From Methanomicrobiales archaeon (GTDB lineage Archaea; Halobacteriota; Methanomicrobia; Methanomicrobiales; JACTUA01), in the NCBI GenBank assembly GCA_015660865.1, contig JACTUA010000006.1, positions 23,777-87,776 on the forward strand: a stretch of 64,000 nt of DNA, in the 5' to 3' direction. Under the pieces are notes generated by a model. That model was not told where the DNA came from. It saw only the letters and a program-made list of their open reading frames with translations, and ran no database searches. Each line of letters starts with the position of its first letter. The stretch's first letter is position 1. Shown in pieces: positions 12,013 to 33,785 of the stretch. The position numbers and the translations under genes are program-made.

Positions 12013-12084
12013 GCCCCGGTAGGGTAGTGGACATCCTAGAAGCCTCCGGAGCTTTTGACCTGGGTTCGAATCCCAGCCGGGGCG
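12013..12084 (+). tRNA. tRNA-Arg, anticodon CCG
   Basis: The acceptor arms GCCCCGG (12013-12019) and CCGGGGC (12077-12083) pair perfectly, with G at 12084 as discriminator. The T arm is CTGGG-TTCGAAT-CCCAG. The anticodon arm is GAAGC, a seven-base loop CTCCGGA and GCTTT, giving anticodon CCG at 12046-12048 for codon CGG. The D arm is GGGT/ATCC around AGTGGAC, leaving two bases rather than one between the D and anticodon stems, a small irregularity. No intron and no encoded CCA are present. Confidence 0.92.
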
Positions 12085-12163
12085 TCCCCTTCTTTTCCCT
12101 GGATTTTGTACCCCCCATACCATACCAACGGGTTTTATTTCGGGCAACAGCGAGAATCCCGGG

Positions 12164-13639: not shown

Positions 13640-13677
13640 CGCCCTCGCCAGGCTCCAGATCTTATTATCCCCTTGGG

Positions 13678-14274
13678 ATGAGTACTTCTGTACCCATGGA
13701 GCCCGCTCCCGTGGTAGAAGAGAGCCCTCCCCCGGTCCCTTCCGACCGGAAGAAATGGGCGATTATTGCCCTCATTCTCGTGATCGCAGGGATCACGGCA
13801 GCGGCTTTTCTTCCCGGTCTCCTGACGACTTCTTCCGGCGGACAGGCGCACCCGATCTCGGGAACGGTGCTCCAGACACCTATTACGCCGTCGTCCCACA
13901 GGACCCCGGGGCCGACTCTCCCTGTCTCACCCGGGGCAACCGCATCCCCAACACCGAGCGGGCCGCCTGGATTTACCGTGACCGTCTCGCCGACGCAGAT
14001 CACTGCAGGCAGGGGTGAAACGGTCACGTACCAGATGATGATCGAGGCCCAGAACGGTTTCTCCGGGGATATCCACATGGAGCTCGTGGCGAGCGTCCTC
14101 TTCTTCAGCCACACCTATGATCTGGGTATCCAGGAGCCCCCATACCCGAAGACCGTTGAGTACCCCTTTACGGTTCCCGATAACCTGCCTTCAGGTGTGA
14201 CGGTGAACGGTGTCGTCAGTTCGACGGGCGGCGGGATCACCCGGGAGGATCAGCTCAGTCTCACCGTACGGTGA
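13678..14274 (+). CDS. Membrane-anchored extracytoplasmic protein
   Basis: The 198-residue product has a Pro-rich N-terminus, one transmembrane helix (WAIIALILVIAGITAAAFLP), a Ser/Thr/Pro linker (about residues 50-100) and an extracytoplasmic domain of about 100 residues beginning FTVTVSPTQITAGRGETVTY. That opening and the following strands resemble the immunoglobulin-like folds of archaeal surface proteins with a Gly-Glu-containing early strand. I chose the ATG at 13678. The frame extends 28 codons upstream, but that part overlaps the transporter gene's end and looks like its shadow. No ribosome binding site is visible, so translation may be leaderless. Function is unknown. Confidence 0.6.
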   Translation: MSTSVPMEPAPVVEESPPPVPSDRKKWAIIALILVIAGITAAAFLPGLLTTSSGGQAHPISGTVLQTPITPSSHRTPGPTLPVSPGATASPTPSGPPGFTVTVSPTQITAGRGETVTYQMMIEAQNGFSGDIHMELVASVLFFSHTYDLGIQEPPYPKTVEYPFTVPDNLPSGVTVNGVVSSTGGGITREDQLSLTVR

Positions 14275-14299
14275 TTCTCACCCGGTATACGTCGCAGGC

Positions 14300-14965
14300 T
14301 CAGGAACTTCTGTCCCGGTGCCCGGAACCCATGGGCCTCCTCCGTCGCATGAATGCCCAGAGGCCTGTAGCCAGGATAGCCCCAAGGAGTGATACTGCCG
14401 GCGATACCGGCTCAGGCTGGGGCCCCGGGCTGCCGGCAGGGGAGGGAGCACCTGCCCGCTCGGCCGCCTCCTTCCTGTCCGCGGCCTCGAGACCTCTCCG
14501 CAGGGCATCTTTCTGGTCCTGGGAACGGCCGAGCTTCTCGTAGACCAGGCTCTCGTAGAAGTAGGCATCCACGAAGTCCGGGTCCACGGCCGTGGCATTC
14601 GAGAAGGCAAGGAGGGCCTCGTTGTACCGTCCCAGCCTGAAGAGGGCATCTCCCGTGTAGTACCAGGCATTGAGGAGCGAACGGTTCTGGGAGAGGGCTT
14701 TTTCGTAGGCGAGGATTGCCTCGCCGTACCGCTCCTCGTTCGTGAGGGCAAACCCCTGCTCGTACCAGTCCTGCGCAGCCAGGGTCGGCTCGGCAAACGA
14801 GACATTCGGGAGGAAGGGAAGGGAACGATTATCGGTCCCGAGGGGGCCCCCCATGGGATTCGGTGACGCATCTTTTCCCGCCACCGGAGCGGCAAACCCT
14901 CCCGTCACGATAAAGGGAACGAGAAGGAGTACAAGGATACCGCCATCCGGGAAGGCGCCTCTCAT
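14300..14965 (-). CDS. Membrane-anchored TPR protein
   Basis: The 221-residue product starts MRGAFPDGGILVLLLV with a signal or anchor helix. Three TPR units follow (AAQDWYEQGFALTNEERY, AWYYTGDALFRLGRYNEAL and AYFYESLVYEKLGRSQDQ). After a Pro/Ala-rich linker there is a C-terminal helix (SPAVSLLGAILATGLWAFM) followed by RRRR, which looks like a membrane anchor with positive stop-transfer. The TPR domain would therefore sit outside the membrane. The start at 14965 was chosen because it puts the hydrophobic helix at the N-terminus. It is convergent with the preceding gene. TPR domains mediate protein contacts; the partner is unknown. Confidence 0.7.
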   Translation of the reverse strand: MRGAFPDGGILVLLLVPFIVTGGFAAPVAGKDASPNPMGGPLGTDNRSLPFLPNVSFAEPTLAAQDWYEQGFALTNEERYGEAILAYEKALSQNRSLLNAWYYTGDALFRLGRYNEALLAFSNATAVDPDFVDAYFYESLVYEKLGRSQDQKDALRRGLEAADRKEAAERAGAPSPAGSPGPQPEPVSPAVSLLGAILATGLWAFMRRRRPMGSGHRDRSS

Positions 14966-15094
14966 CTCAGGAGATGGTACTCCACCGGCCCTATATATCC
15001 ATGGTGCCAGGTGAATACCCGTGCTCCACGGAACTTCAGACGGGAGAAAGAGATCATCCAGGCCCGAAGAGATCGCGGATACGACGGCCACAGT

Positions 15095-16888
15095 TTATGT
15101 TCTCTTGAAGAGGGCATCCAGGGCCGACTTTGAGAATGAGACCATGGTGGGGCGCCCGTGCGGGCACGTGTAGGGGCTCTTCGTGAGGCGGAGCTGGGCG
15201 ACGAGCCTCTCGCATTGTTCCCGGGTGCAGATCGTCCCTGCCTTGATGGCCCCCTTGCATGCGATGGACCGGCTGATGCGCTCTCCCGTATCCTCGGGCG
15301 TGTCAACCTCTTCGGAGAAGATGTCCCCCAGGAGATCATGGATGGCGGAGGCATCGTCCATCCTGCCGAGGACAGATGGTATCCCCCGGACAAGGAAGCT
15401 CTCCTTCCCGAACTCCTCGACGATGAACCCCCGGTCCCCGAGGAGACCGGTGATACCCCTGAGGAGCGCCGCTTCACGTGGCGATTCCCGGATGACGACG
15501 GGCACGAGAAGTTCCTGGGAAACCCGTCGGGCATCCCTCTTCTCTGTCACCTGGTCATAGAGCACGCGCTCGTGGGCCGCGTGCTGGTCGATGAGGATGA
15601 GATCATCGCCGCGGGTCCGGGCGAGGATATATGTCCCCCCGATCTGCCCCACCACCTCCATCTCGGGAACAAGGGTCTCCACACTGGATATCCCGGTCGG
15701 GAGCTCTGTCTGCCGGAGCCTCATATCCGTCATCTTCGCACTGACAGGGGAGGGTTCGCGTACCGGTGCAAAATCTGCAGGTATTCCCGCCGCCGGCCCG
15801 TGCGCGGGAGCAGGAACGGTTCCGGGGGAGGTCCGGGCCGCTCCGCTCTCCTGGACAGGAGGGGTGAGATCCTCACTCCTGAGGCACTCCCTGACAGCTT
15901 CCTCGATAATAGCAAGGATCTCGTGCTCCTTCCCGATCCGCACATGGCGTTTCGTGGGATGCACGTTCACGTCCACGCGTGAGGGATCCATGAGGAGATC
16001 GAGGAAGGCTACGGGATAGGTATGGGACGGGAGAAGGGTCCCATACCCGCGCCGGATGGCCCTCAGGATCTGCCTTGAGAAGACCGGGCGGCCGTTGATG
16101 GAGACGAGGACCCTGGAGGGGGTCTTCCTGGGTGAGAAAGGGGTGGAGATGTACCCGCTGATCCTGACAAGCGGGTGATCCGCCGAGAGGGGGATGAGAT
16201 CCCCCGCCACCTCGTTCCCGTACAGGTCTGTGATGGCCTCAAGGAGGTCGGGGCCCCTCCCGGTTGCAAGGCGTTCCCGGCCGTTGTGGAAGAACTGGAA
16301 GACCACCGAGGGATGCGCGATGGCAAGGGCCTCCAGGGCACCGGTGAGCTGGGCGAGCTCGGCCTGGAGGGATTTGAGGAACTTCTGCCGCGCCGGGGTA
16401 TTATAGAAGAGATCTTCGACCACCACTGTCGTTCCCTGGGGGGCCCCGGCCTCGGAAAGGTTTACGATCTCCCCGCCCCTGGCCTGGACCCGGGTCGCGT
16501 TCCCGCACCCTTCACCCCTGCACCGGGTCACCAGGGTGACCTGCGAGACGGCCGCGATGCTCGCGAGGGCCTCGCCCCGGAACCCCAGGGAGAGGGTATT
16601 CCCGAGATCCGAGAGGGTGCGTATCTTGCTCGTGGCATGAGGGAGGAAGGCGAGGCGGGCATCGGCCCGGTTCATCCCGATCCCGTCGTCGGTGACGCTT
16701 ATCCGGGTGATCTGCCGGGGACTGGAGTTCACCTCGACCCGGATCCTTTTCGATCCGGCATCGAGAGAGTTCTCGACGAGCTCCTTCACCACCGATGCAG
16801 GCCGCTCCACAACCTCCCCCGCGGCGATCTTCATCGCCTCCGAGGGGTCCAGGAGGTGGATGGTCGGGGTGCCCTCGTCAGCGGTCAT
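15095..16888 (-). CDS. mutL: DNA mismatch repair protein MutL
   Basis: The 597-residue product has the GHKL ATPase motifs in order: ELVENSLDAGS, VTDDGIGM and SLGFRGEALASI, then the second-domain lysine region NVHPTKRHVRI. The C-terminal dimerisation domain carries endonuclease-type motifs: DQHAAHERVLYD near residue 432, ACKGAIKAG, and CPHGRPT near residue 576. In the metal-binding DQHAxxExxxxE motif the last Glu is Asp here. MutL links mismatch recognition by MutS to strand incision. I chose the ATG at 16888, which overlaps the last 11 bases of mutS; the frame is open 13 codons further but that part is mutS shadow. Bacterial-type MutS-MutL pairs are known in methanogens and haloarchaea. Confidence 0.95.
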   Translation of the reverse strand: MTADEGTPTIHLLDPSEAMKIAAGEVVERPASVVKELVENSLDAGSKRIRVEVNSSPRQITRISVTDDGIGMNRADARLAFLPHATSKIRTLSDLGNTLSLGFRGEALASIAAVSQVTLVTRCRGEGCGNATRVQARGGEIVNLSEAGAPQGTTVVVEDLFYNTPARQKFLKSLQAELAQLTGALEALAIAHPSVVFQFFHNGRERLATGRGPDLLEAITDLYGNEVAGDLIPLSADHPLVRISGYISTPFSPRKTPSRVLVSINGRPVFSRQILRAIRRGYGTLLPSHTYPVAFLDLLMDPSRVDVNVHPTKRHVRIGKEHEILAIIEEAVRECLRSEDLTPPVQESGAARTSPGTVPAPAHGPAAGIPADFAPVREPSPVSAKMTDMRLRQTELPTGISSVETLVPEMEVVGQIGGTYILARTRGDDLILIDQHAAHERVLYDQVTEKRDARRVSQELLVPVVIRESPREAALLRGITGLLGDRGFIVEEFGKESFLVRGIPSVLGRMDDASAIHDLLGDIFSEEVDTPEDTGERISRSIACKGAIKAGTICTREQCERLVAQLRLTKSPYTCPHGRPTMVSFSKSALDALFKRT

Positions 16889-19550
16889 TCCCCTCACCTT
16901 CCTCCCGCACCCTCTTCTGGAGGGCATAGAGGGCCTCGAGCGCCTGGATTGGGGTCAACCCGTCGGGTTTCAGGTCCATCAGCTCCTTCATGACGGTTTC
17001 ATCCCGGGGCTCCTGCTCCGGTGCATCGACGAAAAGCACCTGGGCGTAGCGCTTCGGCCGTCCACCCTTTCCATCCTCACCCTTCTGGACCGAGGTGAGG
17101 ATCTCGGCCGCCCGGTCGGTGACCTTTTTCGGGATACCTGCCCTCCGGGCGACGTGGATCCCGTAGCTCCGATCTGTCGCGCCGGGAACGAGCCTCCTCA
17201 AGAAGATCACGTCCTTTCCCGTCTCCTTCACCGTGAAATGGTAGTTCTTCACCCGCCGGAGCTCGGCCTCCACCCCCACGATCTCGTGGAAATGGGTCGC
17301 AAAGAGGGTTCTTGGCCCGGGAGCCGACTTCCCGTGGAGGAACTCGAGCACAGACCTCGCGATGGAGTAGCCATCGAGGGTACCGGTTCCCTTCCCGATC
17401 TCGTCCAGGATGACCAGGCTCTGCTCGGTCATGCTGTTCAGGATGTTGGCGAGCTCGAGCATCTCCACCATGAAGGTCGACTGCCCGCTTGCCAGGTCGT
17501 CGAAGGCGCCCACCCGGGTGAAGACCCGGTCGATAATCCCGACGGTTGCATGGGCTGCAGGGACAAAAGATCCCATCTGCGCAAGGATGGCGATCAGGGC
17601 GACACCCCTCATATAGGTGGACTTCCCTGCCATGTTGGCACCCGTGATGATGAGGACCTGGTCCCCGTTCCCGTCCATCAGGGTATCGTTGGGGACGAAG
17701 CGCCCCCCGAGGGACCTCTCCACGACAGGGTGCCGGCCCTCGCGGATCACGAGCCGGAGGCTCTCCTCCAGGACAGGCCGTGCGTAGCCGTTCGCCTGTG
17801 CCACCTCTGCGAGGGCGGCCGTCACGTCCAGGTCCGCAAGCCCCCGGGCCATGCCCTGGAACCGGGGAATGTCAGCCTGCAGGGAGCGGACAAGGGCGGT
17901 GTAGAGCTCCCCTTCCAGGGCGAGGATCTTCTCATCGGCAGAGGCGATCTGGGCCCCCTTGTCGGCGAGCTCGTCGATGATGAACCGCTCGCCCCCGGCC
18001 GTGGTCTGCTTCCGGGTGTACTGGGCCGGGACGAGGTGGAGGTTGGCCTTTGTGACCTCGATGTAGTAGCCGAAGACCTGGTTGTAGCCGACCTTGAGGG
18101 ATCGGATCCCGGTCCTCTCCCGCTCCTTCTGCTGGAGATCGACGACCCAGTTCTTCGATGTCCGTGAGAGGGCACGGAGCTCGTCCAGTTCCCGGGAGTA
18201 GCCTTCGCGGATGATACCCCCCTGCCGGACCATAGCGGGCGGGTCATCCATGATAGCCCGGGTGATCAGGTCCACGGCCTCATAGAGATCCTGGAGGGTC
18301 TCCAGGTTTTCCTGGACAGCCTGAGCAGGCCGAACCCCGTTTTTCGCAAAGAGGGCCCGTATCTTCGGGACCTGCAGGAGGACGTCCCGCAGGGCGACGA
18401 GATCCCGGGGACCCGCGTTCCCGTACGCGATCCTCGCCGCGATCCGCTCGATATCCGCGCACCTGCCGAAGAACTCGCGGAGCTCCCGCCGCTTCCCGGC
18501 CTCGCTCTGGAAGTACTCGACCGCATCGAGCCTCCGGTTGATCGCCTCGACAGAGAGGAGGGGGGCTGCCAGGCGCCGGCGGAGTTCCCTCCTGCCCATG
18601 GCGGTTATGGTGAGATCGAGGGTAGCAAAAAGGGTCCCGTGCTTCTCCAGGGTTCGGATGTTCTCGAAGATCTCCAGGTTCCTGAGGGTGATGGCATCGA
18701 TGAGCATGGTCAGGGTCGGGATCCTGACCGAGAGCCCGGTGATATGCCCGAGAGGGGATCGCATCGTCTCCCTCGCGTACTGGAGAGCTGCTCCCCCCGC
18801 CCTGACCGCCTCAGGGTACGGATCGCACCCGTACCCTGCCAGTGTTTCGACGTGGAAGTGATCGAGGAGGGTCTTTGTTGCCGAATCGAGCTGGAAGGCT
18901 TCCTCACCCACAGGGGTGAGGATGACCCCCTCGGATTCCAGGAGGGCCCTCAAGGGATCGGGAAGGGACGACGGGATCACGGCCTCGGTCGGCCGGTGTC
19001 GGACGATCTCGGACCTGAGATCCGCAAGGCTGCCGGAGGTCCCACAGGCCGAGAGGAAGAACTCGCCGGTGCTCGTATCGAGGAACGCAAGCCCCACCAG
19101 ATCCTTCTTCTCACCTGGCCAGATCCCCATGAGGTATCTGGACCCGGGGGGCTCCCCCAGGCCGGGATCCATGACCGTCCCTGGCGTGACGACCCGGACC
19201 ACCGCCCGCTTCACAATGCCCTTCGCCTGGGTGGGTTCCTCCACCTGGTCGCAGACCGCAACTCTGTACCCCTTTCCGACGAGTTTCCCGATATAACCCT
19301 CGCCAGCGTCGTGGGGCACACCGGCAAGGGGGATACGGTTCCCCGAACGGTCCCTTGAGCGTGAGGTGAGGGCGATATCCAGCTCACGGGAGACGAGTTC
19401 GGCGTCGGCCCCGAAGGTCTCGTAGAAGTCCCCGATATGGAAGAAGAGGATGGCATCGGGGTACTGCTCCTTGAAGGAGCGGTACTGTTCCATGGCGGGG
19501 GTGAGCCGCTGCCCCTGATCCTCTCCGCCGAGATCGCCCTCCCGAACCAT
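16878..19550 (-). CDS. mutS: DNA mismatch repair protein MutS
   Basis: The 890-residue product is a full-length MutS1. The mismatch-contacting Phe-x-Glu is in GDFYETF (residues 42-44). Connector, lever and clamp regions follow. The ATPase has Walker A ITGANMAGKST near residue 640, Walker B LVILDEIGKGTGTLDG and the LFATHFHEI switch, so it should bind mismatches and hydrolyse ATP. The Walker A reads GANMAGKS rather than the usual GPNMGGKS. An internal Met (MEQYRSFKEQ) could be an alternative start, but the upstream LTPAM is typical of the family, so I keep the longer form. It overlaps mutL by 11 bases, indicating coupled expression. Confidence 0.95.
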   Translation of the reverse strand: MVREGDLGGEDQGQRLTPAMEQYRSFKEQYPDAILFFHIGDFYETFGADAELVSRELDIALTSRSRDRSGNRIPLAGVPHDAGEGYIGKLVGKGYRVAVCDQVEEPTQAKGIVKRAVVRVVTPGTVMDPGLGEPPGSRYLMGIWPGEKKDLVGLAFLDTSTGEFFLSACGTSGSLADLRSEIVRHRPTEAVIPSSLPDPLRALLESEGVILTPVGEEAFQLDSATKTLLDHFHVETLAGYGCDPYPEAVRAGGAALQYARETMRSPLGHITGLSVRIPTLTMLIDAITLRNLEIFENIRTLEKHGTLFATLDLTITAMGRRELRRRLAAPLLSVEAINRRLDAVEYFQSEAGKRRELREFFGRCADIERIAARIAYGNAGPRDLVALRDVLLQVPKIRALFAKNGVRPAQAVQENLETLQDLYEAVDLITRAIMDDPPAMVRQGGIIREGYSRELDELRALSRTSKNWVVDLQQKERERTGIRSLKVGYNQVFGYYIEVTKANLHLVPAQYTRKQTTAGGERFIIDELADKGAQIASADEKILALEGELYTALVRSLQADIPRFQGMARGLADLDVTAALAEVAQANGYARPVLEESLRLVIREGRHPVVERSLGGRFVPNDTLMDGNGDQVLIITGANMAGKSTYMRGVALIAILAQMGSFVPAAHATVGIIDRVFTRVGAFDDLASGQSTFMVEMLELANILNSMTEQSLVILDEIGKGTGTLDGYSIARSVLEFLHGKSAPGPRTLFATHFHEIVGVEAELRRVKNYHFTVKETGKDVIFLRRLVPGATDRSYGIHVARRAGIPKKVTDRAAEILTSVQKGEDGKGGRPKRYAQVLFVDAPEQEPRDETVMKELMDLKPDGLTPIQALEALYALQKRVREEGEGNDR

Positions 19551-20117
19551 TTCACCAGTAGTCAGCCCGGGATGAGAAAGGATTACCGATCCCTGCCAAA
19601 GGGGTTCTGATGAGTTGACGGGACTTTCGATATAAAAATGGAGGATAATAAAGAACTCTGGACGTATTAGTATAAAAGAAGGTATCTCAAGTCCCGAGAA
19701 GGAATCAGAATCGTTTTATCTGTTTTGAGGCAGCCGCTAAACGATATTTTCAGTTCGATCTTAATCCTGTAAATGGGATGAAATCTAGTAATCTGTCCTC
19801 TTCCAAACTCCTATCAGAAAATTCTTCAATCTTTTCGAGCAAGCGCAATTCTCGGACATCAATGAGAGCCGTAATAAACACCCTTGCCGATAGCAATTGA
19901 CTGATATCAAAAATAGATATCCGTATTATAAATAATATAATAAGGAAAAGTTTTTACTGCGATAGATCTTTATAATCAAGATGTCATTATCGATTTACAG
20001 CGAGGTTATTTCTTCCTTAAAAGAAGGGGGGAGGGGACAGACGGGAGATAGAAAACCATATGCTTCGTAATTCAGTAAAGGTATTTTATTGTTCTTTTTA
20101 AAATTGGAGGAAAAAAG
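19551..20117. other. AT-rich left flank of the CHAT operon
   Basis: Composition drops sharply from GC-rich to AT-rich near 19600. TATA-like stretches occur at 19934-19950 and 19967-19976, and AAAATTGGAGG just before 20118 is a strong ribosome binding site. On the minus strand, 19750-19881 is open from a GTG for 43 codons (MFITALIDVRELRLLEKIEE and on to a stop), with hydrophobic codons continuing upstream. It may be a tiny gene or the tail of a lost one. Confidence 0.35.
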
Positions 20118-21173
20118 ATGACATCTGAGACATGGTGGGAGAAGATCAGCAAATCCTCTACTCAATTGCCAACTCGTGTACCGATACCTCGAGAGCATGT
20201 GGATGTAGGAGAGAAGTTGGGAACTATCAAGCCCAATGAGCACTACTTCCAGGTACTCATCAACGAAATATACCTGGCAAATTATAGAGAGTGGTTCTCA
20301 ACCTACGATCCGATGTTGTTCATAGTCTCTGAATTTAACTACGGTCAAAAAAAAGAAACTGTGCCGTATATTGTTGGCCCGAGTATGATCGAGAGTATGA
20401 TTGAGAAGTATGGGCAGAAGGCCCCACCAGGAATGATTTTTTCGGACACCCGGGTCACAGGTTTGCATCCCTATCGTGGAGATGGTTTAACCCTCTCCCT
20501 GATATTATTCCAAATAAAACGAGATGCTTATCCCCGGAAATTCATGCAGATATTTGAAAACGCTGCGAAAGTTTTAGACTTTACCACCATGCTCAGCACA
20601 TACGTGAAAGTGGCTGGTATCGTGCTTGATGGGGTGGAATCAATGCTTAATAAAACCGATGTACAGCCGCTCATTGGTTTACGCAAGGAATTTCCTAGTG
20701 ATGTATTTGAATCGCAGTATTTTGCATTGGTCAATATGCCTGAGTCCAAGTTCAATCCCAATGAACTATGGGTTCGTAATGGGCAGCTCGTTCACGGTGA
20801 TAACCTTCCGGATGCCAAACCCTACCGTGATTCTGACTACGTGCTTTTCAGCATTAATCGAACATCTGAAAGAGATGATGTGGAAACTCTTCCCTTTTAT
20901 CCACTTTGGAATCGTGTAGTAGAAGAAGCTAGGGTCGCAAAGGAAGATAACTGGGAAAGCGCAAAAACTGCCATGTCAAACCTGTACCTGGCCATGAGGC
21001 TCAGCCCGGATATAACCGAAAGTCATGCGGAAGCATTAGCAGACGATTACATTACTAAAATGCAGGCCATACAAACAACGGCATGCAAGATTGCGAAATT
21101 GGGTGATGTAAAAACGAAGCCTTCCGAATTGGATGGCATAAGGGCCAAATCTCTCTCAATACTTAAGATGTAA
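20118..21173 (+). CDS. Unrecognised protein, first gene of the CHAT/FHIPEP operon
   Basis: I do not recognise this 351-residue protein. The first 130 residues look like a mixed alpha/beta domain (HYFQVLINEIYLANYREWF). A moderately hydrophobic amphipathic region follows around residues 150-185 (FTTMLSTYVKVAGIVLDGVE), then another mixed domain, and a helical tail from about residue 275 (SAKTAMSNLYLAMRLSPDI). There is no signal peptide and no clear transmembrane helix. GGAGG precedes the ATG, and the CHAT protease gene follows after 34 bases. Its place at the head of a protease operon makes it a candidate substrate, effector or sensor, but nothing in the sequence proves this. Confidence 0.75.
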   Translation: MTSETWWEKISKSSTQLPTRVPIPREHVDVGEKLGTIKPNEHYFQVLINEIYLANYREWFSTYDPMLFIVSEFNYGQKKETVPYIVGPSMIESMIEKYGQKAPPGMIFSDTRVTGLHPYRGDGLTLSLILFQIKRDAYPRKFMQIFENAAKVLDFTTMLSTYVKVAGIVLDGVESMLNKTDVQPLIGLRKEFPSDVFESQYFALVNMPESKFNPNELWVRNGQLVHGDNLPDAKPYRDSDYVLFSINRTSERDDVETLPFYPLWNRVVEEARVAKEDNWESAKTAMSNLYLAMRLSPDITESHAEALADDYITKMQAIQTTACKIAKLGDVKTKPSELDGIRAKSLSILKM

Positions 21174-21207
21174 AGAACCAGAGGGATGGTGACACAAAGG
21201 CAGGGCG

Positions 21208-22716
21208 ATGAAGATGAAATATATCGATTGCACACTGACCATTCGTGATAATAAGAATATAGAATATGTGGATCATTACAAACGTGATGCTCTTGGAGAA
21301 ATAAGAATAGATGACCTCACGCTGAAGACAATCAAAAGATTAAAACATTGGGTGGATCGTGATGAACATTGTAATCGACAAGATCTAGAAATTTTAGGAG
21401 AGCAGCTCTATAATCTTATATTCAGCACTGTTAATCCCGAAAAGAAAATGACAGTAAGAGAAGCTTTTGAGAGAACTTTCGATGTGTTTGAGGAAGAGAA
21501 ACAGAAGGGTTCTGATCAGCGCCTGAGGTTGTTTCTCGTCTTCCATAAAGAGGCAGTGGATTGGGCTTCATACCCATGGGAGTTTCTCTTCATGCCCCGT
21601 AATGCTGAAGGGTTTTTCCTAGCTGAGAAAAAAACTGATCTCATCCTAACTCGGTTTGTGCCTGAAGTTGTCATTAAGGATCGGAAGCCTGACTTACCTC
21701 TCAAAATTTTAATCGCATTTTCTCATCCTCGGGATTTGCCACGTATTGTAGTTGATGATTTTATAAAAGCCATGGAAGCTCTAAAGTCAAAAGATATTGA
21801 TGTCAAACTTTTAGAAAACCCCTCCCAATCTCAGCTTAAAAATGAAATGGATGAAGATGGGTTTAAGCCGGACATCCTGCACTTTATCGGCCATGGGAAA
21901 CCTGGATTTATTGCTCTTAACAAGGAAGAGGAGCAGCTAAAAGTAGAAAGGAAGTTGAAAAAGAGCAACGAGGAGGTAAAGGATTATTTTTGGATTGATA
22001 ACAAGACAGTGGTCGAGCTTTTCAGAGTTCATCATCCCTATTTCGTCTTTTTGCATGCCTGCAAAGGGGCCGAGCAAGATTCGTGGGACAGTTTTAAGGA
22101 TACCGCGAGAGAGTTAGTCCATTCCAAGATACCGGTTGTAGTGGCGATGCAGTATGAGATCTCGGAAAATGATGCGAGTATTTTTGCTATAAAGTTTTAC
22201 CAACAGATTAGTATAGGCAAATGTATAGACGAAGCCGTAAGCGAGGCACGCTATGCATTAGGCACCATTGTCGGCCGGCAAGCTTGGGATGATCGTAGTT
22301 TCGGTACTCCTGTCGTCTACTTACAGTCGGGAAGTGAAACCCCACTTTTTGAACCCAGAAAGCAAGATGGTGAAATCGAGGATACTGTCCGATGTCCTTA
22401 TTTTTACTATCCCCCTCCCGATAATTGTACTGGAAGCGTGCCTAAGAAATTATCACCTCGGGACAAAGCCTGCAGTGCATGTGGGCGGGAAATTATGGAA
22501 TGTCCGGCTTGCCACCAAGTAATGGCTAAAAAACGGGGGTTTTGCAGTTGCGGATATAAACTGAGTGAGATCCCGGCCAGAGAAGACAGCAAGCAAATAG
22601 ATCGGACAAAAGATAAAGAATATGAATTAGGTGCTAAAGGGGCAGGATTAACTCAGCCTCAGAATGGTATGTTGAAACAGCCCTCCACAAGTGAGAAATC
22701 TGCCAAAAGCAGGTAG
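21208..22716 (+). CDS. CHAT-family cysteine protease with C-terminal zinc ribbons
   Basis: The 502-residue product has a CHAT domain (caspase/separase clan) at about residues 100-375. The predicted catalytic pair is His229 in ILHFIGHGKPG and Cys285 in FVFLHACKGAE. The preceding strand LKILIAFSHPRDLP and the later VVVAMQYEISENDASIFA are typical of the family. The N-terminal 100 residues form a strand-rich domain. After the protease come eight cysteines in pairs (C396, C407, C422/C425, C432/C435, C446/C448), which read as one or two zinc ribbons, then a polar tail. CHAT proteases cleave partner proteins when activated by sensors. The gene sits 34 bases after the unknown protein and 5 bases before a TPR-FHIPEP gene, so its regulators and substrate are probably in the same operon. 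Confidence 0.87.
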   Translation: MKMKYIDCTLTIRDNKNIEYVDHYKRDALGEIRIDDLTLKTIKRLKHWVDRDEHCNRQDLEILGEQLYNLIFSTVNPEKKMTVREAFERTFDVFEEEKQKGSDQRLRLFLVFHKEAVDWASYPWEFLFMPRNAEGFFLAEKKTDLILTRFVPEVVIKDRKPDLPLKILIAFSHPRDLPRIVVDDFIKAMEALKSKDIDVKLLENPSQSQLKNEMDEDGFKPDILHFIGHGKPGFIALNKEEEQLKVERKLKKSNEEVKDYFWIDNKTVVELFRVHHPYFVFLHACKGAEQDSWDSFKDTARELVHSKIPVVVAMQYEISENDASIFAIKFYQQISIGKCIDEAVSEARYALGTIVGRQAWDDRSFGTPVVYLQSGSETPLFEPRKQDGEIEDTVRCPYFYYPPPDNCTGSVPKKLSPRDKACSACGREIMECPACHQVMAKKRGFCSCGYKLSEIPAREDSKQIDRTKDKEYELGAKGAGLTQPQNGMLKQPSTSEKSAKSR

Positions 22717-22721
22717 AGTTT

Positions 22722-25418
22722 ATGGCAATTTCCGATGAATTTATTCAATTAATTGCACAGGTGTATTATGAAGCGGCATTGCAAAATGCAGACATGCGAG
22801 ACGTGACAGAAGCGCTAGAAACCATTCGCTCCGCTATTGTAAAGAGAGAGAATAAATTTAAAATATGGGATTCGATTGACCAGTATATCGGACAGGCAGA
22901 GAATGAGAGCTTTCGGAAGGTATTTATTGAATTCCGCAGTCGTTTTCGACAGCAATTTCTAACGAACGAGACTGTTCGCTTGCGTGAGGCGTTTAGCACC
23001 AGCCCTGATGAGGGGTGGATAGAATGGTTGCGAGCCTATGCCGAGGCTTTTTCCTTTGGGCGATTAAAATGTTGTCTGAAACTTTCTGAAGAGCACTTTC
23101 CATTTCAGGCTGATGTCGCACCGGTAGTAGAGAGAATCCGCCAGTCAACACGATATGCGGTACATGATCGATGGCCAGAAGTGTATGACACTATTATCTA
23201 CCTTGCAGATCAAGAGTGTATCCCCAAATCGCTGCGTACCAGCCTGCTTGTTGTAGCTGCTGAGATTCAACTTTATTATTTTTATAAGCTGGATGATGCG
23301 AAGGATTTGTTGAAACGCGGCGAGGAACTTGACCCAGGGAATAGCAGGGTCATTTGTGGCTTTGGAAAGTACTCGTTGCAACAAAACGAATTTGATAAAG
23401 TCAAAGAGTATTCCCAAGAAGCCATCAGCCGGGACCCACTCCTAACAACGAGTTATACATTAATGGGTGACTCGTATGATCGGCAGAATAAGCTTGATAA
23501 TGCTGAGGAATGGTATCGCAAAGCTATAAGTAAAAAAAGCGGCGATTCGGATGGATACCTTGGGCTGTTGCGCCTTTATGGGCGTCCTGAGATGTTTGCA
23601 GCCCATGAAGCGGACCTAATGCCTCTTCTTAATCGAGCCATTTCTGTAGACCCAGCAAGAGAATACAATGCGTATATTGATATGGGTCACATTTACCAGC
23701 AAAATCGGCAATATCCGAAAGGTCACGACTGGTACGATAGAGCTATCAAGCTTGATGGTACTCGCATTGGAGGCTATACCAGTAAAGGGTATTCATATTT
23801 GGAAGAGAAAAACTACGACGGGGCATGCGACTCCTTTCAAAGGGCCATCAAATTAGCCCCTGAAGCATTCGATGGCTACTGGGGAATGGCTTGGCTCTAT
23901 GAGCGGAAGGGGTCATTGGAGGACGCTTTGCAGTGGTACGAGCTAAGTCTGCCAAAACGGCCAAACTGGGAAGGGATTATCCGAGGCAAGATAGGCGAAA
24001 TTAAATTGAAGCAAGGGAAATATGAAGAAGCTCGAGAGGAGATTGCATTAGCATATCAAGTTGATAAGAATGAAGATGTATATCGAAGGACGATGGCAAC
24101 TATTTTCAATGCTGAGGGTAACGAGTGTTACTCTCAAACTGATTATGGCAAAGCCATTGAAAAATATGAGAGAGCAATAGAATTTAATCCAAAAGATGAA
24201 ATTTTTCACTCTAATCTTGCTGGCGCCTGGGAAAAGCTCAGTGATCCTGGAAAAAAGGTTGATGCCCTTGGCAATGCGATATCAGCTTTACAGCAGGCTC
24301 ATGAGCTGAATCCAGATGACCGTGATTATATCGAAAAGATCTCCAGATTGCAGAGAAAGAAGAGCATAGCGGAGCATTTTGGCGAAAAAGCTCTCGATAG
24401 ATTCCTCGTTGTAACCCCAATTGCAGTTGAGGTCGCCGGCAACCTGATACCTTGCGTGGAATCAGAAACTGAATCAGGACTGCATCCGACTTTAAATCGC
24501 TTAATCGGTATAATGCGTAAAGACATCAACAATACAAGCGGAATTAGTATCCCTGGTATAAGGTTCCGGGGTAATGAAGACCTTCCAGCTGGTACTTACA
24601 ATATTATCATGAATGAGATTCCTCTCGTCAGTGGAACTATTTTGGAGGAGAAGAGATTATTCCCAGGTCCCATGGCAAATTTGACACCATTGGGTGTTTT
24701 CGGAGAGGAGACAGATAATCCTTTAACGGGAGATAAAGCAGTTTGGATCAAACGAGAGGACTGGAAAAAAGTGGAACTATCGAAGCAAGCCCTTTGGGAA
24801 GTTATCGAGTACATGGTACGACACCTGGAGGCTGTTATTCGAAGAAACTTGGACGAGTTCTTCGGTCATCAAGAGATTATGACTAAATTATCTCCCTATG
24901 ATGATATTTACAAGAATATGCAGGATACTCCGGCAGATCTTACTGCATGTACCATGGTTATGAAAGGTTTATTAAACGAGGGCGTGCCAATTATCGAGTT
25001 CGAAAAACTCGTCGAAAGATTCAATGAGTCAAGGAAGGATAAAAAGAATCTTTTAACCATTATCGATACGATTCGTTCCCTGCCTGAAGTCAAAACAACA
25101 TTACCAGGGAATAATGATCAATATTCTTTTTATCGGCTCGGGCAGCGATTTGAAGAAGAGGTTAAAAAGTCTGTATCCATTGAGGATTACCTGCCTTTCT
25201 TGGCCACAAAACCATTAATTATTCAGAAGGCCCTTACAGCCGTGAGACGGAAGATCGGATCTAACCGGAATGTGGCCCTGTTCGTTGAAAATGCAGAATT
25301 AAGACCATTCGTCAGACAATTGATCGAGATTGAGTTTCCGCTTGTTCCCGTTTTATCCAGAATGGAGTTGCTACCGGATCTTGAAGGTAAAATAACAGGG
25401 GAGATTGAATTGGAGTAA
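22722..25418 (+). CDS. TPR protein with C-terminal FlhA/SctV-like (FHIPEP) export-gate domain
   Basis: The 898-residue product has an N-terminal helical domain (residues 1-165), about eight TPR units (roughly 175-545; for example GYWGMAWLYERKGSLEDALQ) and a C-terminal domain of about 340 residues. That domain follows the cytosolic part of FlhA/SctV in order: PIAVEVAGNLIPCVE, GISIPGIRFRGNEDLPAGTY (the family's IPxxRIRDNxxLxPxxY), KAVWIKREDWKKVELSKQAL, VIEYMVRHLEAVIRRNLDEF, FGHQEIMTKLS, MVMKGLLNEGVPIIEFEKLV and RPFVRQLIEIEFPLVPVLSR. The eight-helix membrane half of FlhA/SctV is absent. In secretion systems this domain forms a ring and docks chaperone-substrate complexes. Here it may do so for the CHAT protease. 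The next gene starts in an overlapping TAATG. Confidence 0.75.
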   Translation: MAISDEFIQLIAQVYYEAALQNADMRDVTEALETIRSAIVKRENKFKIWDSIDQYIGQAENESFRKVFIEFRSRFRQQFLTNETVRLREAFSTSPDEGWIEWLRAYAEAFSFGRLKCCLKLSEEHFPFQADVAPVVERIRQSTRYAVHDRWPEVYDTIIYLADQECIPKSLRTSLLVVAAEIQLYYFYKLDDAKDLLKRGEELDPGNSRVICGFGKYSLQQNEFDKVKEYSQEAISRDPLLTTSYTLMGDSYDRQNKLDNAEEWYRKAISKKSGDSDGYLGLLRLYGRPEMFAAHEADLMPLLNRAISVDPAREYNAYIDMGHIYQQNRQYPKGHDWYDRAIKLDGTRIGGYTSKGYSYLEEKNYDGACDSFQRAIKLAPEAFDGYWGMAWLYERKGSLEDALQWYELSLPKRPNWEGIIRGKIGEIKLKQGKYEEAREEIALAYQVDKNEDVYRRTMATIFNAEGNECYSQTDYGKAIEKYERAIEFNPKDEIFHSNLAGAWEKLSDPGKKVDALGNAISALQQAHELNPDDRDYIEKISRLQRKKSIAEHFGEKALDRFLVVTPIAVEVAGNLIPCVESETESGLHPTLNRLIGIMRKDINNTSGISIPGIRFRGNEDLPAGTYNIIMNEIPLVSGTILEEKRLFPGPMANLTPLGVFGEETDNPLTGDKAVWIKREDWKKVELSKQALWEVIEYMVRHLEAVIRRNLDEFFGHQEIMTKLSPYDDIYKNMQDTPADLTACTMVMKGLLNEGVPIIEFEKLVERFNESRKDKKNLLTIIDTIRSLPEVKTTLPGNNDQYSFYRLGQRFEEEVKKSVSIEDYLPFLATKPLIIQKALTAVRRKIGSNRNVALFVENAELRPFVRQLIEIEFPLVPVLSRMELLPDLEGKITGEIELE

Positions 25419-27052
25419 TGGAGGGGGAGTTCGAAAACATGGAAGGAATACCAGATATTTTGGGACAAGGAAAAGTCGTTGTTGAATTGACTCCTTCACT
25501 GGAACGCTTTACCGATCCAGAAAGTAGTGATAGTAATGCCTTGAAACAATATCTTCTGCAACTGCTGAATGATCTCATAGCGGATCTTAGGATTCCCGTA
25601 GAAATCTCATTACACGTAAAACTCGGTGACGACAAAAATAGGTTTGGTATAAACTCCTATCAGGTATCCGTTAACGATAGTAAATGCAGGTTACAACTCC
25701 CAACTATCTTGGGTCAAGATGTGCAAGCCAAAGAACTGGCCGGATCTATAGTAAAGGTCATTCATCAAAATCGCGATTTGTTCATCACGATACCATTAGC
25801 TGAGAAGATTCGGAAGGAGTGGTCATCTGTTAGTGGTGAAACGGATTTGATGGTTTGGCCAGAGAAAGGTTTTCCCGAATTTCTATCGGAGCTCGTTCGT
25901 CGTGGATTCAGGATTGATCGAGGGAAGGCAATTGTTCAGAAATCTAAAGATACGGGGCAAAATATATGGAGCGCTGAGGAATGTTTTGAAGAAGCGGTTT
26001 CCGGATTTGATACAACAATAAAAGTTTTCTTCAACCAGGAGGGTGCAAAAATACAGTCCCCAGCCGACAAAAACTCACTCGAAGAGATGTTTGACCTTAT
26101 GCAGGACGGCCTCTTTTATGAGTTAGGGATTATCCTTCCAGGGGTGAAGATCGATACTGATGAGAGCTTGGACGAGAATGAATTCAGAATACAACTGAAT
26201 GATCTCCGATCTCCACCCGATCAAGGTCCTGCACAAGATGAGTTTTTGGTGAATGATACATCTGATAGACTGTTCCTCTTAAATTTAACCGGCAAAAAGG
26301 CCGTGAATCCTGCAAATGGGACTGAAGGCGCTCTTGTTCAAGATAGAAATACAGCCTTAAAAATATGTGAAAAAGCAGGGTTGACTTCGTGGGGACCGGC
26401 CGGCTTTGTCATCCTTGCACTCAGTTCTAATGTCAGGAGAAATGCTGGTAACTTCCTGACAACTGAGATCCTCAAATTCAGTCTGGATCGGCTGAATGAG
26501 GCTTTTCCTGATCTTGTGGACACAACGCTGAAGCGTTTTGATGAAGTGATACTGACCCGGATTTTGAGAGATTTGTTAGATGAAGAGCTCTCCATCAGGG
26601 ATCTTCGAGGGATCCTCGAAGCGTTGCTAGAAGTCAGTGGTTCATCCATCGATGATCAGAGTAAAAATCTAGTGTCCTCCCCCCATATTCTCAGCTTATT
26701 GCGGAAATCCCTTGATCGATATATTTCAAATAAATGTAAAACCAGAGACAACACCTTGGTTGTATATCTTTTAGATAAACTGATAGAGAAGAGAATTATG
26801 CAGGAACGGTTATTGAACGATGAAGAACGTGATCGATTGATAAAAGCTTTCTTCGGCGAGTTTGGAGTTTTGCCTGTAGCATCCCAAAATCCAATTATCT
26901 TGACAACTTTAGGGGTTAGAAAAAAGCTCAAGAATCTAATTGAAAAAGAATTTCCCAGAATTTTTGTGTTGTGCTATCAGGAACTTGGGCCCGATTTAAA
27001 TATTCAACCGATCGCTCGAATTACATGGGACAGAAGAATTGGAGCTATGTAA
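25418..27052 (+). CDS. Second FlhA/SctV-like (FHIPEP) protein
   Basis: The 544-residue product is a second soluble FHIPEP-like protein. The N-terminal 195 residues begin with a strand-rich unit (GKVVVELTPSLERF) that I do not recognise. From about residue 230 it follows the FlhA/SctV cytosolic domain: YELGIILPGVKIDTDESLDE, ENEFRIQL, then RNAGNFLTTEILKFSLDRL, VILTRILRDLLDEELSIRDL with GILEALLE, ILSLLRKSLDRYISNK, and VRKKLKNLIEKEFPRIFVLC with YQEL. No membrane helices are present. The two FHIPEP proteins are diverged, so they may form a hetero-oligomeric ring. The first ATG overlaps the preceding stop. A second ATG at 25439 has GGAGGGGGAG upstream and may be the real start. Confidence 0.72.
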   Translation: MEGEFENMEGIPDILGQGKVVVELTPSLERFTDPESSDSNALKQYLLQLLNDLIADLRIPVEISLHVKLGDDKNRFGINSYQVSVNDSKCRLQLPTILGQDVQAKELAGSIVKVIHQNRDLFITIPLAEKIRKEWSSVSGETDLMVWPEKGFPEFLSELVRRGFRIDRGKAIVQKSKDTGQNIWSAEECFEEAVSGFDTTIKVFFNQEGAKIQSPADKNSLEEMFDLMQDGLFYELGIILPGVKIDTDESLDENEFRIQLNDLRSPPDQGPAQDEFLVNDTSDRLFLLNLTGKKAVNPANGTEGALVQDRNTALKICEKAGLTSWGPAGFVILALSSNVRRNAGNFLTTEILKFSLDRLNEAFPDLVDTTLKRFDEVILTRILRDLLDEELSIRDLRGILEALLEVSGSSIDDQSKNLVSSPHILSLLRKSLDRYISNKCKTRDNTLVVYLLDKLIEKRIMQERLLNDEERDRLIKAFFGEFGVLPVASQNPIILTTLGVRKKLKNLIEKEFPRIFVLCYQELGPDLNIQPIARITWDRRIGAM

Positions 27053-27520
27053 ATGGAAACAGCAGCCGCTCGTTATTTAGAGTTTATGGTAAATGACTAC
27101 TATAATCGCCTCATGGCTTTGCTGGATTTAGAAGATCTTAGCGACGAGGATTTGGAGACGCTCTACGCCCTTGGATACAACTTTTTCACCTACGGTAAAT
27201 ACCAAGCTGCCAAAGACATTTTCGTCCGTCTGACGGCCATTGCTCCCTACACAGCTTTCTATTGGCGTGCCCTTGGAGCGGTGAACCAACAGATGAAAAA
27301 CTACGCTGAAGCGATTGCTGCTTACAATATGGCCATCGCCAATGATGAGGCGGACATTGTAAGTTACGTTTATCGGGGTGAGTCGCAGATTCTGTCAGGG
27401 AACATTGAGGCAGCTTTAAAAGATTTCGAGAAGGTTTTAAAGATCGGAGCTAATGATTCACAGACAGAACCTTGGGTGAAGCGCGCTCATTTACTTATTA
27501 ATATACATAAACAATCCTAA
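27053..27520 (+). CDS. Small TPR protein resembling type III secretion chaperone SycD/LcrH
   Basis: The 155-residue product has a short helical N-terminus, then LSDEDLETLYALGYNFFTYG, KYQAAKDIFVRLTAIAPYTA, FYWRALGAVNQQMKNYAEAI and SYVYRGESQILSGNIEAALK. Three TPR units after an LSxxxLExLYxLxxNxxxxGKY opening is the layout of class II type III secretion chaperones such as SycD/LcrH/IpgC, and the length matches. In bacteria these chaperones hold translocators and present them to SctV. Finding such a protein directly after two SctV-like proteins argues that the chaperone-gate contact has been kept. Its ATG follows the previous stop codon immediately, so translation is coupled. A generic TPR protein is the alternative. 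Confidence 0.7.
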   Translation: METAAARYLEFMVNDYYNRLMALLDLEDLSDEDLETLYALGYNFFTYGKYQAAKDIFVRLTAIAPYTAFYWRALGAVNQQMKNYAEAIAAYNMAIANDEADIVSYVYRGESQILSGNIEAALKDFEKVLKIGANDSQTEPWVKRAHLLINIHKQS

Positions 27521-27580: not shown

Positions 27581-28268
27581 AAAAATTATAAAAATCTCGC
27601 CCTTCCTCTAATCTAAAAAAGAATAAAGTAAATCACCGACTGCAAAAAAAAGAACAGTCCACATTACCCTCAATCTGGAAAATACACAGCCAATTGTGTG
27701 TTATTTAAAAAAATGCATTACCACTTGAATTAGCAGGTGTTGGCACGGGTTGTTAATCCTGCCAGAGCTTAGCAGATTATCGTCATTATCACAGGATGAG
27801 ATCAGTTCTCACATTTATGATGGTAAGTCCCTCGGGAAGACCATAGGTTAATTCATCTGGAAAAACAGGTTTAGAATTATTTGATGTAGAGTAAAATATC
27901 ATCTCCGACACAGATAGTATCCGAGGAATGGGAAACTGATATTTCAAGAAAATCGAACATATTAGCCGAACTTCCTCCCCTATGAATCACCACGTATCGA
28001 TTAAAAATATAGAAAGTGTTGCAGAACCTGTCGAAACCTTTATGAATGATATTGGTTCTTTCTACCAAGTAGGGATTCCGGATAAAGGCGCTATTCAGCC
28101 ATACAGTTCAACCCATCTGGTTGGTCATTCAGTCATCCAGTGGGGTCTTATCAGGATTACCGGCCTCATAACTCTCATCACCCCCGGAATTCGAGCGGGA
28201 AGAATCTGATTATCCTTGGAGCCCGAGATCAACAGACATAAAAGTGGAACGAAGTGAGGTTGCTCGTT
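27581..28268. other. AT-rich right flank of the island
   Basis: About 690 bases without a supported gene. Short open frames occur on both strands around 27877-28209, but none has a recognisable motif. Composition rises back towards the genome level near 28200. A TATA-like ACATAAAAG at about 28235-28243 lies upstream of the calpain-like gene. No tRNA, integrase fragment or direct repeat marking an island end is visible. Confidence 0.4.
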
Positions 28269-29411
28269 ATGGACGTTGAAATCCGCCAGAATGTAGGTGT
28301 GAGAAACCCGTATGCCCTCATGGCCCTGAAGAGTTCATTGAAGAAGGGCTGGTGGAGGGCGAAGAGCCTTGAGGATGCGAAGAAAGATTTTCAGAAGAAG
28401 TTCAACAAGCCCTTCGAGAAACTCTTTGATCCTATCAACGACTCCCCTCTATACCATGGACTTCCCGGGGTATTCGGCACTGCTGTCCAAGCCCACGTTG
28501 GGGCAAAGACGGACTGTACAAATCTCCTCTCTGCATGGAAGAGAAGGGATGAATGGATCTACTACAATCCCACCCTGGACTGGTTTGATCCTATCCAGGG
28601 TTGCGTTGCGAACTGCTTCCTGATATCTGCCCTCTCCTCCCTTGCCTGGGTCTGTCCCGGCCTCATGCCCAGGGTTACAGGGAGGGACTCGAACAATGTC
28701 CCCTTCGACCAGTATAAATTCTACCCTTCCGGTGGCGCTCAACCCACCTCTGTCACGGTCACGGAGCAGCTCCCGGTGAATGCGAACGAAGAGCTGGTCT
28801 ATGCAACATCCTATACCCAGAACGAGATCTGGCCATCGGTATACGAGAAGGCGTATGCGAAATTCTGGGGATGCCCGGTCATAGATGGGGATGGAGACAA
28901 GCCGGACATCTCCCAGATGTGCTCCGGGAACCCCCTCACCGCCCTGGTCAATCTCACCGGCCTGGGAGCTGTTGCTCACCTTACTCAGGAGTTTAACTCG
29001 GGCAGTGATCTTTTCGTCGCTTTGAGCAGTCTCACCGAAGGGTCCAAGTGCAAATTCCCCATGGTCGGGTGGACCCACCCGACCGCTCCAGATGGGAGCG
29101 GCATCTCTTTTACAAGCGATCAGATCGTGGCGAACCATTCCTACTCCATCCTTGGAACCTATATCGATCCGGCAACGAGCAAGAAGTGTATCGTCCTCCG
29201 AAACCCCTTCGGCCCCAACATGGGAGACCCGAACGTTCCCGGAGTACTATCAGGGACCTGGACATACAACCTTGCCTACTTCAGACAGGGGGGGGTAAGA
29301 ATTACAATCCCGGTGAAAAGAACCCTTGATCTCACCTTAGCCGATGGAGTCTTTGCATTCGACTCAGATGAATTCATCAAATACTTCGAGGCCTTCGGGT
29401 ACGTCACATGA
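28269..29411 (+). CDS. Calpain-like (family C2) cysteine protease
   Basis: The 380-residue product carries the calpain catalytic triad in order. Cys116 lies in IQGCVANCFLISALSSLAWV, aligning with the family's QGxxGDCWLLAALASLA. His290 is in VANHSYSILGTYID, and Asn312 in IVLRNPFGPN. The oxyanion Gln is present, but the usual Gly-Asp before Cys is Ala-Asn and the following Trp is Phe. No signal peptide, EF-hand or C2 domain is seen, so it is probably cytoplasmic, or activated in an unknown way. I chose the ATG at 28269 with GTGAGGT upstream; the frame also opens five codons earlier with GTG. It lies 62 bases before a large surface-protein gene. Confidence 0.8.
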   Translation: MDVEIRQNVGVRNPYALMALKSSLKKGWWRAKSLEDAKKDFQKKFNKPFEKLFDPINDSPLYHGLPGVFGTAVQAHVGAKTDCTNLLSAWKRRDEWIYYNPTLDWFDPIQGCVANCFLISALSSLAWVCPGLMPRVTGRDSNNVPFDQYKFYPSGGAQPTSVTVTEQLPVNANEELVYATSYTQNEIWPSVYEKAYAKFWGCPVIDGDGDKPDISQMCSGNPLTALVNLTGLGAVAHLTQEFNSGSDLFVALSSLTEGSKCKFPMVGWTHPTAPDGSGISFTSDQIVANHSYSILGTYIDPATSKKCIVLRNPFGPNMGDPNVPGVLSGTWTYNLAYFRQGGVRITIPVKRTLDLTLADGVFAFDSDEFIKYFEAFGYVT

Positions 29412-32803: not shown

Positions 32804-33772
32804 ATGCCCCTCCCCTTCCTGATCCGGCGCCCTCCTGATATCACCTCGCTGCAGGAGGCGAAGGATACCCGGGGGCTCATCCGGCTCCTCACCCATCCCG
32901 ACCCTGATACCCAGTGGAAGGCGGCCGCGGCCCTGGGGACCCTCGGGGATCCCGCCCTCGAAGACCTCGTCAGGGGCCTCGATCACCCTGATGTGCGTGT
33001 GCGGCTCGGGATCCTCGAGGCTCTCGGGGAGATCGGGGATGCCAGGGCCGCCCGGCCCCTCCAGGTGATCCTTGCAGGGGACAAGAGCAGCGAGATCCGC
33101 TGGGCTGCCGCCCTCGCCCTGGGGAACCTGGGCGGTGCCGGCGCCATCCCCTCCCTGGTGAAGGCCCTCGGGGATCCGGACAAATACGTCCGGTTCGGTG
33201 CAGCCACAGCTCTCGGGAGGCTCGCATGGGAACCTGGCAGCGGCGAGGAGAGGGCCCTCTCCCTCATCGCGAGGCAGGAGTGGCCCCCCCTCCCGCCTCT
33301 GGGTTCGCAGGCTGTCGGGCCCCTGCTCCGGGCAACGCGGGACCGGGATCCCGCCATCCGCGCCCGGGCTGTCGAGATCCTCGGGGAGATTGGCGGACAG
33401 GGGGCAGGGGAGGCGTGCGGTCCCATTCTCAGGGACCCGGATGGCGAGGTCCGCTGGAGGGCGACCCTCGCATTCCCGAGGTGCGGTATCCCCCTGATGC
33501 ACCTCCCCATGGGCCTTGCCCGGCGGCCCAGGCCGGGGAAGAGCCCGGTGGTCGCAGCCTTCCTGAACCTCCTCTTCCTCGGCCTCGGATACAACTACCT
33601 GGGCAGGTGGTACGGGTTCCTCCTCTTCCAGCTGAACCTGACCGCGATCGTCCTCGCATCCCTCGTATGGGGCCCGCTCCTCCCCTACGCCGTCTCATAT
33701 ACCCTCTCGGCGCCCATCGCCGTGCAGACCTGGTACCAGGCACGGGGAATGCAGGAACAGGAGCCGGGATGA
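32804..33772 (+). CDS. HEAT-repeat protein with C-terminal TM2-like domain (copy 1)
   Basis: The 322-residue product has about six PBS-lyase-type HEAT repeats, for example DTQWKAAAALGTLGDPALED and VRLGILEALGEIGDARAARP, across residues 15-230. These form a solenoid for protein contacts. A Gly/Arg linker follows, then a C-terminal pair of hydrophobic helices beginning AAFLNLLFLGLGYNYLGRWY, whose FLGLGxxYLGR pattern resembles the TM2 domain. The solenoid therefore lies at the membrane. It is followed after 13 bases by a paralog of the same architecture. No catalytic residues are visible, so a scaffold role is an inference. Confidence 0.8.
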   Translation: MPLPFLIRRPPDITSLQEAKDTRGLIRLLTHPDPDTQWKAAAALGTLGDPALEDLVRGLDHPDVRVRLGILEALGEIGDARAARPLQVILAGDKSSEIRWAAALALGNLGGAGAIPSLVKALGDPDKYVRFGAATALGRLAWEPGSGEERALSLIARQEWPPLPPLGSQAVGPLLRATRDRDPAIRARAVEILGEIGGQGAGEACGPILRDPDGEVRWRATLAFPRCGIPLMHLPMGLARRPRPGKSPVVAAFLNLLFLGLGYNYLGRWYGFLLFQLNLTAIVLASLVWGPLLPYAVSYTLSAPIAVQTWYQARGMQEQEPG

Positions 33773-33785
33773 GGGAGGTACCTTC

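Follow-up and report, generated by a model that had tools for sequence, protein, structure and literature searches.

A five-gene archaeal operon with a CHAT protease, two soluble export-gate (FHIPEP) proteins and a chaperone-like TPR protein: a candidate protease activation platform

A stretch of 64,000 nucleotides from a Methanomicrobiales archaeon, the whole of which is called the window below, contains at positions 20118-27520 five head-to-tail open reading frames (ORFs) on the + strand, W1 to W5. They encode a protein without known relatives in domain databases (W1), a CHAT cysteine protease (W2), a protein joining TPR repeats to an FHIPEP domain (W3), a second soluble FHIPEP protein (W4) and a TPR protein resembling the LcrH/SycD chaperones (W5). 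This composition, proposed in a first-pass annotation of the sequence alone, was confirmed by domain profile searches. The anatomy of the module is firm; from it we infer a soluble ring, activation of the protease and proteolysis, and a role in defence. The favoured reading, at a probability of about 0.4, is that W3 and W4 form an export-gate ring, which serves as activation platform for the CHAT protease in a conflict or self-killing response.

Soluble FHIPEP proteins

The FHIPEP profile matches W3 (E-value 4e-37) and W4 (4.7e-37, residues 191-526) significantly, and the predicted fold of W4, modelled as a monomer, is SctV-like; W4 also matches the SctV model TIGR01399 at 8.1e-40, far below the full-length cut-off of that model. 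Absence of any FHIPEP match, together with folds unlike SctV, had been named beforehand as the outcome speaking against the first-pass annotation: it was looked for, and the opposite was found. In the Pfam profile of 657 positions the matches start at 311 and 325, and an N-terminal transmembrane gate domain was not found in either protein by hydropathy or profile span: maximal hydropathy over 19 residues (KD19) is 1.28 for W4 and 1.85, within the FHIPEP domain, for W3, against 3.0-3.2 for two SctV controls (P0084, P0113).

Homologues of W4, searched for by scoring only the candidates with most shared words, number 124, of which 120 are listed; their source names include Hodarchaeota and Hermodarchaeota, which are Asgard archaea. 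KD19 is below 2.2 in 92 of the 120, the other 28 all being 670-719 residues long, the length of SctV. The FHIPEP domain of W3 has 58 homologues, 39 of which make up the W3-type set (P0200-P0238; P0200 is the W3 of the window, and the list was ended at P0238 by choice); 37 of the 39 have a KD19 below 2.2. In 20 of these 39 proteins a W4-type FHIPEP domain stands behind the W3-type one in a single chain, 15 of the 20 spanning 1385-1427 residues; no tandem was found in the remaining 19 of the 58. Domain fusions are usually taken as a sign that the parts act together. In P0103 and P0108 a W4-type FHIPEP domain is joined to an FGE-sulfatase domain, which fits a sensing hub, since domains of this type are proposed as sensors in conflict systems diversified by diversity-generating retroelements (PMC10907252). 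The N-terminal part of W4 was considered as a duplicate of the first FHIPEP domain, and this is not claimed, hhalign giving a probability of only 24-27%.

The relationships of the FHIPEP domains were analyzed in a tree (LG+C20) of 93 rows picked from 216 extracted, with a midpoint root, which gives no direction between W3 and the other domains. All 21 rows of W3 type fall in a single clade (100/100). Another clade (100/100), located among SctV rows, takes in the 35 rows of W4 type together with P0114, P0118 and P0120; its neighbours are four SctV proteins (99/89), two of them named Myxococcota. If W4 does descend from SctV, its docking domain would have outlived the loss of the membrane gate.

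Soluble FHIPEP proteins of about 590 residues were also encountered at L085:10125-11891 and L086:9629-11410, each beside an ORF that, judged by eye, is aminomethyltransferase-like. As further cases of the module they were rejected: they branch with rows labelled FlhA, elsewhere in the tree, and no CHAT relative was found at either locus. Both come from the phylum of genome G394, reached via a Leptolyngbyaceae metagenome-assembled genome (L005), where 163 of 319 genomes have an FHIPEP match; the listed matches are mostly frames near 700 residues, these two being the ones read. Such a frequency is odd for cyanobacteria, which are not known to have flagella; L005 may be filed in another phylum.

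The CHAT protease and its zinc ribbon

The CHAT domain of W2 is recognized at 3.4e-13. With its His/Cys dyad (Table 1), W2 is a CHAT protease, for which proteolysis is predicted. The zinc-ribbon-like arrangement seen at its C-terminus is found again at the N-terminus of P0204, a W3-type protein, and internally in P0028, of W4 type; in all, the pattern occurs in 3 of 254 retrieved proteins (the third being the more distant P0247), with a mean of 0.0 in shuffled sequences. That the ribbon turns up now on a CHAT, now on an FHIPEP protein suggests that it serves for docking in the members bearing it. The operon's only PADLOC matches are to SAVED_CHAT, weakly (0.00016), and to Cas2, at chance level (0.036).

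The chaperone-like TPR protein

W5, described in the first-pass annotation as chaperone-like, lives up to this: it scores 102.5 bits against TIGR02552 (LcrH_SycD), 2.3 bits short of the cut-off of 104.8. The alignment covers positions 5-133 of 136 of this profile, and 25-145 of PcrH, a TPR layout over the whole chain. Matches in the PDB are PcrH, AcrH, SycD and IpgC, alongside engineered and other TPR proteins; the chaperone YscY is likewise a TPR protein. A full-length W5 is found behind W4 in the single chain of P0004 (9.7e-69), the only such match among the retrieved homologues of W1, W3 and W4: W5 is rare among what was retrieved. The class II chaperone motif PxLxxP occurs once, at residue 83 of W1, in the folded part, and is absent from W2-W5, as well as from the first 60 residues of all 41 rows of the W1 family.

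W1, a partner of cysteine proteases

No Pfam, NCBIfam or PADLOC match was found for W1 at E-values up to 1; within its family, a weak DUF305 match is seen in one of 41 members. The model shows a C2-like sandwich (residues 38-252, weak) followed by C-terminal helices. Gasdermin was tried as an identity for W1, and neither Pfam nor, at E-values up to 0.001, Foldseek gave a match.

W1 has 79 homologues. The 15 W1 loci considered derive from one genome-contig scan with the W1 alignment (11) and from a plasmid search (4), and in 14 of them a cysteine protease adjoins W1 or lies a few ORFs off. The protease is a CHAT at L003, L006 (broken frames), L007, L008, L009 (not adjacent), L011, L012, L013 and L017, recognized by Pfam in L009 and L017 and by similarity to W2 in the others; a C14 caspase at L004, L005 (opposite strand), L010 and L014; a C1 papain at L016. 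At L015, where the annotation was read and the neighbours lie outside the scan, no protease is annotated adjoining W1. A NACHT protein is the direct neighbour of W1 in L010, and in L009 one is located not far off; L014 has an AAA-caspase protein next to W1, preceded by a gene annotated MoxR. The link to peptidase conflict systems, drawn in the first-pass annotation, is supported by these loci. W1 also occurs in peptidase systems without FHIPEP. When 288 genomes were scanned with a W1 profile, the known G396 was found, plus one marginal match (8.7e-4).

At L009:2477-5728 a NACHT-FGE protein adjoins the CHAT protein, upstream of the W1 relative, with a 630-residue ORF and smaller ORFs in between.

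Recurrence of the module

A CHAT protein adjoins a TPR-FHIPEP protein in the window and at L006, L008, L013 and L057: the pair recurs in Chloroflexi and Terriglobia loci. A second FHIPEP protein is present in the window and at L006, L013 and L057; L008 is without it, its contig ending about 320 nt further on. Frames are broken at L006 and L057. The latter, found via W4, features a CHAT protein, a TPR-FHIPEP protein, a broken second FHIPEP and, where W1 would be, a different protein of 310 residues. A TPR protein follows CHAT at L003 (cut by the contig end), L006, L007, L008, L012 and L013; by Pfam it bears FHIPEP in L008 and L013, while the broken frames at L006 leave a tail piece in which our own profile detects FHIPEP. 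No FHIPEP was found on it in L007 at E-values up to 0.1, nor in L012 among the 25 best families. Of the five-gene order, the recurring core is thus composed of CHAT, TPR-FHIPEP and FHIPEP, whereas W1 is often met without FHIPEP and W5 is rare.

The W4 profile matches in 45 of 400 genomes. For five of the 45 (G395, G518, G547, G599, G628) the surroundings were read, and the module is present in two; G599 and G628 have an FlhA with membrane part, and in G547 nothing was found by our own profile. A further scan of 245 genomes, run with no positive control, gave 0 matches. A host of the module may also have a further FHIPEP protein: the Terriglobia genome of L008 encodes a separate one of 691 residues (L062). 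Source contigs of equal size, shared between the homologue lists of W1, W4 and W3, give only indirect support: 4, 5 and 7 coincidences were counted, against 0.35, 0.07 and 0.11 expected (jitter), the lists being taken in full for W1 (79), up to entry 76 of 120 for W4 and for 39 of the 58 listed in the case of W3. A viral origin was considered and rejected, pattern scans of viral contigs having returned no relative of W1 or W4.

Operon and host genome

The gaps between the five genes are 34, 5, -1 and 0 nt: because of this spacing, on one strand, they are taken as one operon (Table 1). Promoter and terminator scans gave no signal above that of shuffled sequences.

Table 1. Position in the window of the operon genes and of their features
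Feature	Position	Strand	Remarks
GGAGG, candidate ribosome-binding site of the W1 gene	20106..20110	+	sequence
W1, 351 residues	20118..21173	+	no Pfam/NCBIfam/PADLOC match; weak C2-like model and C-terminal helices
W1 residues 140-177, predicted helix pair	20535..20648	+	most hydrophobic 19 residues start at 152 (KD19 1.43)
W2, CHAT cysteine protease, 502 residues	21208..22716	+	
His229 codon of W2	21892..21894	+	invariant in 9/9 aligned CHAT proteins
Cys285 codon of W2	22060..22062	+	invariant in 9/9 aligned CHAT proteins
Zinc-ribbon-like stretch, C-terminus of W2, CxxC...CxxC	22387..22545	+	similar ones on P0204 and P0028
W3, 898 residues: N-terminal part, TPR repeats, C-terminal FHIPEP	22722..25418	+	
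FHIPEP domain of W3, residues 545-886	24354..25379	+	E 4e-37
W4, 544 residues, second soluble FHIPEP protein	25418..27052	+	
SctV/FlhA cytosolic-domain fold of W4, residues 197-538	26006..27031	+	predicted model
W5, 155 residues, LcrH/SycD-like TPR protein	27053..27520	+	

The host genome (1.94 Mb, 98.98% complete) encodes methyl-coenzyme M reductase alpha, and the host is therefore regarded as a methanogen. W3 and W4 are the sole FHIPEP matches in the genome, and no match was found in it for FliP or FlhB, two core gate genes of type III secretion (the search gives matches in 4 of 14 control genomes). The G+C content of the operon is 43.0%, versus 63.1% at 12000-19550 and 61.5% at 28254-50000, and among 392 sampled genomes of the same phylum the W4 profile matches in the host alone. 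The foreign base composition, the patchy spread and the lack of FliP and FlhB matches all fit a horizontal gain of the operon.

Neighbours in the window are MutS, MutL, transporter and PKD/beta-propeller genes. A calpain-type cysteine protease gene (PF00648, 3e-20; 28254-29411) begins 733 nt past W5; it may or may not be part of the module, because G+C content there climbs toward the host level. Farther away, a run of glycosyltransferase genes (991-9237) lies in a low-G+C stretch (35% over 1-8000), two of them matching the GT4-conflict profile, one with 34.1 bits, over the cut-off of 26; two adjacent ORFs at 32804-34745 match a small part of the PADLOC model HEAT-ARM_XIII (4.4e-14, 7e-14).

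Discussion

In crystals, the cytosolic domains of SctV form rings with 8, 9 and 10 subunits (PMC9629515), and the Yersinia SctV nonamer docks a substrate:chaperone pair, YscX:YscY (PMC9163089). On the favoured reading, W3 and W4 would alternate in a closed soluble ring: with even numbers among the known ring sizes, tandem W3-W4 pairs could close such a ring. A trigger or client would be bound by the TPR arms on W3, and perhaps by W5 as well; this binding would collect CHAT proteases on the ring, via the zinc ribbon in some members, and the gathered proteases, in an apoptosome-like manner, would cut a partner. W1 would be the likeliest substrate, or a membrane-directed executioner, because it is found near cysteine proteases of several families and its weakly C2-like model is accompanied by helices. 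A bolder version, which we consider unlikely, is that of a prokaryotic apoptosome, archaeal members included, built from an export gate: a ring of tandem FHIPEP domains with TPR trigger arms would fire the CHAT protease, and the C2-like partner would bear the death signal to the membrane. Two observations weigh against the activation platform and make a physiological role slightly more probable: the ribbon is present in just 3 of the 9 aligned CHAT proteins (window, L003, L057), and a W4-profile match is found in only 3 of the 11 genomes with W1 loci.

The function of the module could be physiological, secretion parts having been captured for a regulatory protease that acts as a protein-quality or signalling switch, with no part in conflict. 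The virus-free pattern scans, the poor PADLOC result and the MutS, MutL, transporter and PKD/beta-propeller neighbours are in line with such a role. A mobile conflict module, however, is a better fit to the very patchy spread, the foreign base composition, the occurrence of W1 relatives on plasmids and the NACHT, MoxR and caspase neighbours of W1, so that a purely physiological switch appears rather doubtful.

Alternatively, in line with the delivery to or from the protease suggested in the first-pass annotation, the FHIPEP proteins and the SycD-like protein may form a soluble chaperone-docking hub with no activation role, from which CHAT would receive a client, held by the chaperone, to degrade or mature. 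Docking of YscX:YscY on the Yersinia ring is a precedent (PMC9163089), and the closeness of W5 to class II chaperones and its fusion to W4 in P0004 point the same way. Such a hub, however, would be expected neither from the rarity of W5 nor from the lack, in W1-W4, of a suitably placed PxLxxP-type motif, and W3 already bears TPR arms: delivery is, in our judgement, improbable. An activation platform fits somewhat better than delivery, given the TPR-FHIPEP fusion, the frequent FHIPEP-FHIPEP fusion, the ribbon on both CHAT and FHIPEP proteins and a whole W5 seen, among the retrieved homologues, only in P0004.

That the operon is a functionless relic, in decay, of a type III secretion system that came from bacteria, as the derivation of W4 from SctV and the broken relatives L006 and L057 might suggest, is very hard to reconcile with five open genes with conserved motifs, a CHAT, TPR-FHIPEP, FHIPEP order recurring across distant phyla and a clade of their own for the W3-type domains.

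Compared with known systems, the operon shares the cytosolic FHIPEP fold with the SctV/FlhA export gate (PF00771), but its proteins are without the membrane gate domain, in a genome without FliP or FlhB match, and it features two different FHIPEP proteins, which relatives often have in tandem, as well as TPR arms and a protease. W5 resembles the class II chaperones over a near-full profile span; yet it stays below the equivalog cut-off, its PDB matches to generic TPR proteins have similar scores, and no injectisome gate genes were found in the FliP/FlhB search. The CHAT protein may be likened to the TPR-CHAT of Craspase (type III-E CRISPR), a caspase-like protease with TPRs kept for triggered proteolysis, which cuts Csx30 (PMC9729208); here, in contrast, CHAT and TPR are separate chains, the partner is FHIPEP and the Cas2 match is of chance level. 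PADLOC, run on the five genes plus the calpain gene, finds no Cas7-11 there. With the ternary conflict systems of MoxR, vWA and caspase (Kaur 2020, 2021) the operon has in common the peptidase effectors and, at three loci, STAND or MoxR NTPases beside W1 relatives, whereas none of its five genes matches a MoxR ATPase, vWA or other NTPase; in a term search of both papers neither FHIPEP nor FlhA was found. Bacterial gasdermins with their proteases likewise keep an uncharacterised partner beside a CHAT or caspase, but W1 has no gasdermin match and a weakly C2-like model.

The protease side alone is of a known kind: the hub is the new part. A literature search, whose scope left out most subscription papers and bioRxiv preprints, found no description of FHIPEP with CHAT, caspase or defence; as far as it shows, the export gate domain is described only within secretion machines. 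Here, in bacteria as well as in an archaeon, a stand-alone, duplicated, TPR-armed export-gate pair is found beside a protease of caspase-like type. Should the ring be real, proteases would have an activation platform of a new kind, and evolution would have arrived a second time at a wheel resembling the apoptosome, a part of a secretion machine being recast as a switch, likely of immunity or death. It becomes testable, moreover, whether SctV/FlhA dock chaperone complexes as a general means of signalling, with uses beyond secretion.

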